A DNA stretch of 64,000 bases from Chloroflexota bacterium (GTDB taxonomy: Bacteria > Chloroflexota > Chloroflexia > Chloroheliales > Chloroheliaceae). Each line of letters begins with the position of its first letter. Position 1 is the stretch's first letter. The notes under the pieces were generated by a model. That model saw nothing but the letters and a program-made list of their open reading frames with translations, was not told the DNA's origin and searched no databases. Location: NCBI GenBank assembly GCA_028287745.1, contig JAQBPB010000026.1:1-64000 (forward strand), in the 5' to 3' direction. A program made the position numbers and the translations under genes. Below, in pieces: positions 15,778 to 19,811 of this stretch.

Positions 15778-16174
15778 TTAAGATATAACACGAAAAAAAC
15801 AGTGTGTCAAGAGTAAAAATGTAACTTTAGTTTTCTCACAGAGTTACCACGAGTTCGGCTTCAAACAAGGGGCCATATTTAGGGCTTGAGAAAGTAGCAG
15901 CATAATTAAAGGATTGCAAAAGCAAATAAGTTTGCAGGAGATTGCCACCGGCAGCGTTAAAGTTACCCGGCTTTTCCAAGAAAGGTCATTAGTTGTTATA
16001 AGTTGGGGATATTCTTATCGCGTTATTTTGCGAAAGGCTTGCTTAAACCCGAACAGTTGATTCGTTTTATGTAAAGCTCATTACTCCCTTTAAAAATAGT
16101 CCGCCTTAATAAGCGGACAAACTAGTAGTAGCAGTGCTAATTTTAATGGCCCTGTCACAGAACAGAGCCTTTAA

Positions 16175-19100
16175 TTAAAAGCCAGATTTTATAGGGGGTT
16201 CCAGGACCAAAACCGAGGGGACCTCCCGGGGGTAAGCCAGGCGCAGCAACATGTAACCGGCCCCGGCCAGCCCGGTCATTAACTCCGGTGTTTCCACGCC
16301 AAAGGGTGAGCCGGAGTCCCAGGTTTCCTGGTGCAAACCCTGCCAGATTTTACCTTTTAAGGCATCCAGTTCAGCTTGCAACTCCGGGGTCTGGGTCGTT
16401 AAAGAAGCTGCCAGGATTAAATCCATATTGCCCAGGTCGCCGTGACACAGGCAGTAATTTGTGCCGAAGCCTTCTTTGAGAGTGGTCTGAACGGCCGCTT
16501 TTATATCGGAACCCAGGGCCACATCCTGCAAGTAGGCCAGGGAGGCCACCCGGCTCAGACCTATCCCGGCCGCGCCGTAGCACCAGCCGGTCAGGTAATC
16601 CGCCCCTTCCAGTTTTACCGAGCCAGGGTTCCCGAAGTTTCGCAGGTCCGGCCAGTTCTGCTTCTCTTGCGAAAAGGTAGAGTTTTCGTAAGCGAAAGCC
16701 TGCTTACCGGCATGGTGAAAACGCTCTTTCTTACTGGCCGCACCCAGGGCCAGCAGGGCTAAACCGATGCCCGCCGCGCCGTGAGCCAGGCCGGTGAGAG
16801 GCCCATCCGAAGAAATAGGGCCGGTCCAGCCCAGACCCGCAGGCGACGGGACAGCTTTTGTCAGGAGATGGTCGCCGCACATAACGGCCAGTTCCAGGAT
16901 TGCCGGGTCGGTCTTGAACTTATACAGATTTAAAAGGCAAAGGAGCGTCCCGGCCGAACCGCCCAACAGGTCATAATGCTGGTCCTTGCGGATTAAAGGA
17001 GGTAAAAGCCCGGCCAATTTAACCGCTTCATCGAGTAGAGCCGGTTCTTGCCAGAGTTCCGCCAGGTGCGTATTGAGGTGGATCGCGCCCGCGATGCCGC
17101 TAAAGGCCCCAGGAGTAAGCCAGTTTTCCCGTTCCTTATGCCGGTCCAACTGGCGGTTCATGCCGGTAAACGCCTGCCGGGCCAGCCCGGTATATTCAGG
17201 GTTGCCGGTGATTTTACCCAGGTAAGCCAGAAACAGGCTGATACCGCTCAGGCCGCTATATAAATCGTAATCGGCCGAAGCGACTTCAAATTCGTTACCC
17301 GGTTGAAGGTTCAGGACGGCCCAGTTAGCCGCTCCCTCTTTGATTAAAGCCAGTTCGTGCAAGCGGTCGCCCATCCGGGCGGCCAGGCTTACCAGCGCTT
17401 GCGGGCCTACCGGCCCCGGCGGTTGAGCCTGAAACAGCACCGTTTTCTTTTTGGCATGAGCGAAGGGGTCCAACGTGGCAAAAGAAGCTTTGATGAACCA
17501 GAGCTGCGTCTCCAGGTCGGCCTGGGATAAACTGCCGATATGCTCGCTGACCGACTCAAGGCTGGACCGGTTGAAGAAATTGGGCCATACATCGCCCTGG
17601 CTACCGGTCAAATCCCGCGACCCAACCAGGGTAGTGAACAGCGGTATATCACCCTGTAGCAGGTCGGACTGCTCGGCAGAAATTAGCCGGGCCAGGAAAG
17701 GCTGGACTGCCACGCCCAACCAGAGCTTATCCAGGAAGCGGTTCCGGGTCAGGGCATTTTTTAACAATTCGGGGTGAAAGCTTTCCTTCAAAATCCGGCT
17801 ATAAGTCTTGGTAGACCGGACAATCACCCGGATAGGGTCATTTTTGAATTTTGGTAAGAACTCTTCCCGTAGAAATTTCCGGTTTTCAGCCAGAAGTAAG
17901 TAAACCTGCTTGAAACCGGCCAGGAAATCAGCCAGGTAATCATTCAACTCAACTTCCGCCCCATTTATAGTTGGCCGGTTATCAGAACCTTCCAGGGCAA
18001 TATGCTTTTTTACAATCCGCATTTCATCGGTAGCAAAACCTTCCCAGGTATTGATTGGAGTGGGTGAGAGTTGACCGGCTTTACCACCTAACCCGCTTAT
18101 ATCCAGCCCTTGTCCCAGGACGTTGGAGCCGGTGCGCTCCGGTAGCATCCCTATGCGCAATACCGAGTAGCCAACTCTATCCAGGGCCGGGTCATTGGCC
18201 TGTTTGAAGAACTCTTCCTCTAACCTGGGATGAAAGAGGGCTTCCAGGTCTACCAGGACCGGGTGTTCTCCGGCGGCAATCAGGTTTTCCGAGTGAAAAT
18301 CGGTGGCTTGCAGGGTATAAAGCAGGGCCAGGTAACCTCCCTGACGCCGGTAAAAGCGGTGTACCTCCGCGGCAGTCGAGCAGCCGGTGTAATGGGCAAA
18401 TTCGGACCAGCCGTATTTACCTGAGTCCAGGGTCTTCAGGACGCGGAAAGATGTTTCGAGTCCCTGGTTGCTCAGCCAGCCGAGCAGCTCGTTAAAATGA
18501 ACGTCTATACTGACCGGTTTTGGTTTGTATATAAGCCGGTAACCGGAGTCAAACTTTAGCCTGACCACGCTCCGGCCGCCCCGGTGGCTGTCCCCGGCGG
18601 CTTCAACTTCTACCAGTTGGCCCGGACTGCCGGTTTCGGGCCAGAACAACCGGCCAAGCTTTTCCCAATCCGCGCACAGATGGCCTAGAAATTCCAGGCT
18701 GAAATTCAGCCAGTTACTTACGGTAATCACAAGCTGGCGAGCAAGCACCGGGTACTCTTCCAGGAGCACCGCCAGGTTAGCCGGTTGGCTCAGGCGAGAA
18801 ATAAAATTGTTAAAGCGTTCCTGGGGGGTTTCACCTTCCAGGCGTCCCTGGACGCGGGCTACGTTTATTTCCAGGGCGATAACCCTGGCTAATTTAGTGG
18901 CAAGCAAGGCGGGTAAATTTGCCAGCAGCTGCCCGGTCACAATTTCGGCTTTAAAAGGTACTTGCGGATATTGGCCGGCCAGGGCCCGGATGCCCGCCTG
19001 AAGCCGGGCAAGGTTAGTCGCTACTAAAGGTTTAATAAGGTTAAGGAATAGCAGTTTATTTTCCCGGTCTTCGACATCCGGCAAAATTAAGTCAAAATTT

Positions 19101-19471
19101 ATTTCTTCGTCCTGGTTTTCAAAGGCTGCTACAAACTGCTCTAACCAGCCGGGAATGAACGGAGTCCGTGAGAATAAAGCCTGTTCCGGCTCAGCCAACA
19201 GGGCCAGTAAATTTTCTTCAGTCAGGTTATCGGCGGCCACCCGCTGTTTGAAATAATTGGCTTTATTAAAGGGAGGTTGCTCTTGCCATTTCTGGAACTG
19301 ACGCCGGGCTTTTTCACCGGGAAAGTCAGCCGGGGTTTCTTGCAAACCGGTCACCTGTCCTGCCAGTCCGGCTCTTTCTGACAGAAACAAGGCCCGGTAC
19401 CAGGCCGGATTGTGCGTGGAAAGAAGATTTAATTTCTGGTTTTCAGTAATTAAGTCAGCCATTTTACTCAT
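16175..19471 (-). CDS. lanM: class II lanthipeptide synthetase LanM
   Basis: Dehydratase motifs RLIYKPKP and TDFHSENLIAAGEHPVLVDLEALFHP; LanC zinc ligands in GWCYGAAGIG and CLCHGDLGNMD. Start may be 19462. Confidence 0.95.
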   Translation of the reverse strand: MSKMADLITENQKLNLLSTHNPAWYRALFLSERAGLAGQVTGLQETPADFPGEKARRQFQKWQEQPPFNKANYFKQRVAADNLTEENLLALLAEPEQALFSRTPFIPGWLEQFVAAFENQDEEINFDLILPDVEDRENKLLFLNLIKPLVATNLARLQAGIRALAGQYPQVPFKAEIVTGQLLANLPALLATKLARVIALEINVARVQGRLEGETPQERFNNFISRLSQPANLAVLLEEYPVLARQLVITVSNWLNFSLEFLGHLCADWEKLGRLFWPETGSPGQLVEVEAAGDSHRGGRSVVRLKFDSGYRLIYKPKPVSIDVHFNELLGWLSNQGLETSFRVLKTLDSGKYGWSEFAHYTGCSTAAEVHRFYRRQGGYLALLYTLQATDFHSENLIAAGEHPVLVDLEALFHPRLEEEFFKQANDPALDRVGYSVLRIGMLPERTGSNVLGQGLDISGLGGKAGQLSPTPINTWEGFATDEMRIVKKHIALEGSDNRPTINGAEVELNDYLADFLAGFKQVYLLLAENRKFLREEFLPKFKNDPIRVIVRSTKTYSRILKESFHPELLKNALTRNRFLDKLWLGVAVQPFLARLISAEQSDLLQGDIPLFTTLVGSRDLTGSQGDVWPNFFNRSSLESVSEHIGSLSQADLETQLWFIKASFATLDPFAHAKKKTVLFQAQPPGPVGPQALVSLAARMGDRLHELALIKEGAANWAVLNLQPGNEFEVASADYDLYSGLSGISLFLAYLGKITGNPEYTGLARQAFTGMNRQLDRHKERENWLTPGAFSGIAGAIHLNTHLAELWQEPALLDEAVKLAGLLPPLIRKDQHYDLLGGSAGTLLCLLNLYKFKTDPAILELAVMCGDHLLTKAVPSPAGLGWTGPISSDGPLTGLAHGAAGIGLALLALGAASKKERFHHAGKQAFAYENSTFSQEKQNWPDLRNFGNPGSVKLEGADYLTGWCYGAAGIGLSRVASLAYLQDVALGSDIKAAVQTTLKEGFGTNYCLCHGDLGNMDLILAASLTTQTPELQAELDALKGKIWQGLHQETWDSGSPFGVETPELMTGLAGAGYMLLRLAYPREVPSVLVLEPPIKSGF

Positions 19472-19524
19472 TTCTATAATAAAGCTTTACAGGATTAATC
19501 CGGAAACCAAACTTTTTAAAGTGA

Positions 19525-19554
19525 AGGCAGAAGCCTTTTAAAGGGCTTCTGCCT
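19525..19554 (-). promoter_or_regulatory. perfect hairpin between lanthipeptide precursor and lanM (possible attenuator)
   Basis: 11-bp stem AGGCAGAAGCC / GGCTTCTGCCT, no long U-tract following. Confidence 0.6.
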
Positions 19555-19595
19555 CGATGGTTACTTTTTCAAATTAGTGGAAAGCTAAAATGAAA

Positions 19596-19811
19596 TTAGC
19601 AGCCGCAGCCCTGGATTTTCGTCCGAGCGCTGTAGCATTCAGGTGTGCGGTAAGGGGGGCGGCCACCCGAAATTTCATCAAGCTCTTCCTCCTGCAATTC
19701 AAAATCGCCGACGGGGTTGGCGGGAAGCTTGGCAAGCTGTTCAGGAGTAAGGCTATTGCGGTACTCTTCGTCTTTCCAGGCCCGGGCAATATCGATTTCG
19801 TCATTGTTCAT
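19596..19811 (-). CDS. lanA: mersacidin/lichenicidin-like class II lanthipeptide precursor
   Basis: Leader MNNDEIDIARAWKDEEYRNSLTPEQLAKLPANPVGDFELQEEELDEISGG, then core RPPYRTPECYSARTKIQGCGC; immediately upstream of lanM. Confidence 0.93.
   Translation of the reverse strand: MNNDEIDIARAWKDEEYRNSLTPEQLAKLPANPVGDFELQEEELDEISGGRPPYRTPECYSARTKIQGCGC

Follow-up and report, generated by a model that had tools for sequence, protein, structure and literature searches.

Clusters built around a LanM synthetase have already been described from Chloroflexi (PMC3951391, PMC6497799), and several well-known peptide systems offer points of comparison for the locus considered here, which lies in a stretch of 64,000 nucleotides, hereafter the window. 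With class II lanthipeptides of the mersacidin/lichenicidin family it shares the leader family, the GG site and the LanM architecture, and LicM2 is the best solved relative of its synthetase; it differs in lacking LanT and LanP, and in a core peptide from which the mersacidin lipid II-binding motif TxTxEC is absent by pattern search. In the prochlorosin/synechococsin systems (ProcA/ProcM), precursor genes lie far from LanM and the maturation genes (PMC7268733, PMC10783134). The scattering of one pathway's genes over the genome and the GG leaders are common to both cases, but in the genome studied here (G000) each full-length LanM has a precursor next to it and what lies far off is the exporter, and the window leader is of the mersacidin type, not Nif11.

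NHLM export cassettes were defined together with GG-leader precursors of the NHLP and Nif11 types, some of them adjoining LanM (PMC2887384). All three NHLM components are found above their cut-offs on contig C39 of this genome, but there the trio stands alone, with no LanM or precursor among the listed genes of the surrounding 20 kb, and the leader of its putative client LanA reaches only 22 bits against the NHLP-leader profile, under the cut-off of 50.9. Closer in taxonomy is the ktedonobacterial cluster of Dictyobacter arantiisoli (L044), which has a LanM 42% identical to that of the window and a precursor of the same leader family, but whose lanA-lanM pair is adjoined by a C39 exporter, where the window locus has none. 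A remote, shared exporter is a layout already known from cyanobacteria, and the lanA-lanM locus is therefore close to ordinary.

A two-gene lanthipeptide locus

The window corresponds to positions 1-64000 of contig C20 (82 kb), part of a 6.34 Mb genome in 137 contigs that is 93% complete. The locus consists of the following features, all on the minus strand:

19596..19811, minus strand: lanA, precursor ORF of 71 aa (TIGR03898, 65.5 bits; Shine-Dalgarno-like AAGGAG)
19526..19553, minus strand: hairpin between lanA and lanM, a possible attenuator (perfect inverted repeat, 12 bp)
16175..19471, minus strand: lanM, class II lanthipeptide synthetase ORF of 1098 aa (PF13575, PF05147, TIGR03897, LicM2/CylM, motifs)
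16099..16170, minus strand: pair of hairpins 3' of lanM with a T-rich stretch after the second one, a candidate terminator (hairpin search, folding)

The precursor belongs to the TIGR03898 family of mersacidin/lichenicidin-type leaders, which it matches over residues 7-50, far above the curated cut-off of 23.5 bits, the match ending at GG. The leader comprises residues 1-50 and terminates in ISGG, and the predicted core, RPPYRTPECYSARTKIQGCGC, has 21 residues with three Ser/Thr and three Cys. The Shine-Dalgarno-like AAGGAG precedes the lanA ATG. The synthetase is a DUF4135 dehydratase (PF13575, 412 bits) fused to a LanC-like cyclase (PF05147, 246 bits), each nearly full length, and TIGR03897 (931 bits, cut-off 304) identifies it as a full-length LanM. 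Its closest solved relatives in a phmmer search are LicM2 (6st5, E=2.8e-123) and CylM (5dzt, 4e-53). Aligned with LicM2 and eight relatives, it retains its dehydratase motifs (DSHRGGRSV, YKPK, TDFHSEN, VDLE and RSTKTY) and the LanC-domain zinc ligands C964, C1009 and H1010, and these are conserved among the relatives. The earlier note on this DNA had described a compact class II locus of precursor and LanM, with a mersacidin/lichenicidin-type leader ending in GG and a LanM that keeps its dehydratase motifs and zinc ligands, and these assignments hold. The region between the two genes has a folding energy of -29.2 kcal/mol (z -4.85), and its hairpin is possibly an attenuator that favours the precursor mRNA.

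The flanking genes encode an aldehyde dehydrogenase and an ArsR-type HTH regulator adjoining a glycoside-hydrolase-like gene, as had been read earlier from the sequence (an aldehyde dehydrogenase and a glycoside-locus regulator). The absence of a nearby transporter was likewise confirmed: no C39 peptidase gene was found on the 82 kb of contig C20, neither an exporter nor an immunity gene was seen in the surroundings of the pair, and no C39 exporter stands beside lanA-lanM in the manner of a lantibiotic cluster with a dedicated LanT/LanP. The earlier note had allowed for a LanT hidden in a mis-assembled region. This was rejected, as the pair sits about 16 kb inside the nearer end of the contig with no assembly break there, and the C39 genes of the genome sit on other contigs. 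A foreign origin judged by composition was also rejected, since the G+C content of lanA and lanM (54.6%, against 52.9% for the window) gives no sign of it.

A complete exporter on another contig

A search of the whole genome for C39-peptidase exporters, proposed in the earlier note, returned three C39-peptidase genes, on contigs C39, C48 and C72. The match on contig C72 was dropped as an exporter candidate, being weak (25 bits) and without peptide genes in its surroundings. On contig C39 the peptidase gene (L012:9417-11624) has an HlyD-like gene on one side and a second ABC gene on the other, and the three proteins exceed the equivalog cut-offs of TIGR03794 (231 bits, cut-off 156), TIGR03796 (1114, cut-off 853) and TIGR03797 (944, cut-off 709), so that the trio is a complete NHLM exporter. 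In its second ABC protein (L012:11634-15908, 1424 aa) the transporter part is preceded by three FHA domains. Of the two alternatives that had been offered for the missing genes, the use of distant genes for maturation and export gains support from this complete NHLM, with its GG-type C39 peptidase, on another contig.

The preferred reading, to which we give a probability of roughly 0.78 on sequence grounds, is that lanA and lanM together are a class II lanthipeptide module of two genes, for which the stand-alone NHLM exporter would remove the leader and carry out export in trans. LanM would phosphorylate and dehydrate up to three Ser/Thr of the 21-residue core (T6, S11 and T14), and the LanC domain would then add C9, C19 and C21, giving up to three (methyl)lanthionine rings, of which a ring within T6-P-E-C9 is a plausible one. 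Cleavage behind GG would remove the leader and export of the product would follow, both by the NHLM of contig C39, through its HlyD-like protein, its C39-peptidase ABC protein and its second ABC protein with FHA domains. A single peptide-cutting exporter, kept elsewhere in the genome and shared between loci, is the probable reason why lanA-lanM has no export gene of its own.

We infer the handling of LanA by this NHLM in the face of some evidence to the contrary. The low NHLP-leader score of LanA counts against it, as does the peptidase itself: its catalytic Cys and His are present, but the third position of the triad, that of the catalytic Asp117 of LahT, is occupied by Asn in this genome and in the two same-genus genomes (G083 and G084), with Asp in the related genome G085. 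Papain-type enzymes use Asn at the corresponding position, and by that analogy it is plausible that the NHLM peptidase is active. In addition, no sequence feature links LanA to the NHLM over the C39-ABC system of contig C48, a set of 164-aa, 926-aa and 725-aa proteins. It is conceivable, but unlikely, that the module is functional and that leader removal and export fall to the contig C48 system instead, the C39 domain of which (L016:6936-9716; PF03412, 71-75 bits) has Cys, His and Asp intact and which is also present in the same-genus genomes. Set against this, the system scores far under the cut-off of every named peptide-exporter family that was tried, the NHLM models included, it is absent at threshold from G085, a genome with LanM, and there is no precursor beside it.

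Peptide loci without local exporters

Two further LanM loci are present in the genome, on contigs C80 and C111, making three in all, as are two further TIGR03898 precursors, on contigs C80 and C79, again making three. Identity to the window LanM is 46% for the LanM of contig C80 and 32% for that of contig C111, the latter being accompanied by a precursor of 211 aa that has an NHLP leader, while the mersacidin-type precursor on contig C79 is an orphan without a LanM nearby. No C39 gene was found in the stretches fetched around these three loci. Beyond a need for hydrophobic residues at leader positions -4, -7 and -12, the C39 peptidase LahT, in the form LahT150, is tolerant: leaders of the Nif11 and nitrile-hydratase types are cut, and so are some of the shorter leaders of lanthipeptides (PMC6363468). 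The residues at these positions are I/L/L in the window leader, V/L/I in that of contig C80, I/L/L in that of contig C79 and V/L/I in that of contig C111. All four leaders fit the rule, which makes their cleavage by some C39 domain likely, whichever that may be, and the NHLM of contig C39 probably serves the precursor loci on contigs C80, C111 and C79 as well.

The survey also yielded details of single loci. A LanM with CCG replacing CHG at the zinc site lies beside a 211-aa NHLP-leader precursor (L014:7346-11469), and a 175-aa protein matching solely the C-terminal end of LanM is possibly a remnant (L013:18423-18950). A mersacidin-type leader (TIGR03898, 54.8 bits) precedes a Cys-free core rich in Tyr, Asn and Pro, with no LanM nearby (L015:9151-9411), and orphan leaders of this type with other cores were also seen at L064:5569-5808 and L065:1389-1640.

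LanM loci in this family, the Chloroheliaceae, as a rule have no local exporter: none of the family's eight LanM stretches has a C39 exporter, as against 22 of the 31 in other Chloroflexota families (Fisher p=4e-4), and class-wide a LanM occurs in six of the eight genomes with an above-cut-off NHLM as against 24 of 158 overall (hypergeometric p=1.5e-4), these counts being taken from search hits, with related genomes treated as independent and some LanM stretches short or cut by contig ends, so that the p-values are indicative. Within the family, LanM and an above-cut-off NHLM occur together in G000, G083, G084 and G085, and neither occurs in G086.

It is against this family norm that the decay of the locus has to be judged, that is, that lanA-lanM is a remnant or silent, its own exporter lost and its product no longer made or exported. 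The lack of a local exporter or immunity gene would fit, and no orthologue of the pair was found among the TIGR03898 and LanM loci of the two same-genus genomes. A search of same-genus genomes for the empty site returned a best aldehyde dehydrogenase match of only 49% identity and several paralogues of the regulator. Both reading frames of the lanA-lanM pair are intact, however, with catalytic and zinc residues conserved and a Shine-Dalgarno-like site and hairpins in place, and a missing exporter is usual in the family, all of which renders decay improbable. The other alternative in the earlier note, that the product works in an unusual way, found no support, given the rule in the family and the known scattering of prochlorosin genes; that it is intracellular or active without leader removal has the absent local exporter as its sole support, and the GG leader with its C39 determinants and the candidate exporter in the same genome leave it barely credible.

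The comparison also brought out LanM relatives of reduced architecture. Nif11-leader precursors with Cys-free, Ser/Thr-containing cores lie beside dehydratase-only LanMs of 672-673 aa without LanC, adjoined by an aldo/keto-reductase-like protein (L062:7315-11082 and L063:7327-10739), an arrangement that suggests dehydration, perhaps followed by reduction, without lanthionine rings. A 653-aa dehydratase-only LanM has as its neighbour a precursor in which a mersacidin-like leader is joined to a Cys-free core (L060:8491-10760), and in another family of the class DUF4135-only proteins of 611-619 aa occur near mersacidin-type precursors and C39 exporters:

L130:6117-7976: DUF4135-only protein
L132:7450-9285: DUF4135-only protein
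L133:7398-9233: DUF4135-only protein

Significance for the family

The lanA-lanM locus offers a defined precursor, an enzyme and a candidate exporter with which to study maturation in trans, in a branch of the Chloroflexota that has received little attention. Mining based on clusters would label such loci incomplete, when here the missing exporter lies elsewhere and is probably shared. The survey also singles out nearby loci whose chemistry may be newer, namely those of the dehydratase-only LanMs with Cys-free cores. The type of locus is already known; less settled is the range of further cargo that the shared exporter may carry. One tentative answer, which we hold to be possible while leaning against it, is that the stand-alone NHLM is a hub in this family, serving peptide loci that are unlinked and differ in their chemistry. 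Its clients would then be the LanM lanthipeptides, a LanM peptide with an NHLP leader, peptides free of Cys that go with dehydratase-only LanMs, in some cases alongside an aldo/keto-reductase-like partner, and cores that have a mersacidin-type leader but no LanM in the vicinity, and the leader would be an address for export more than one for modification.
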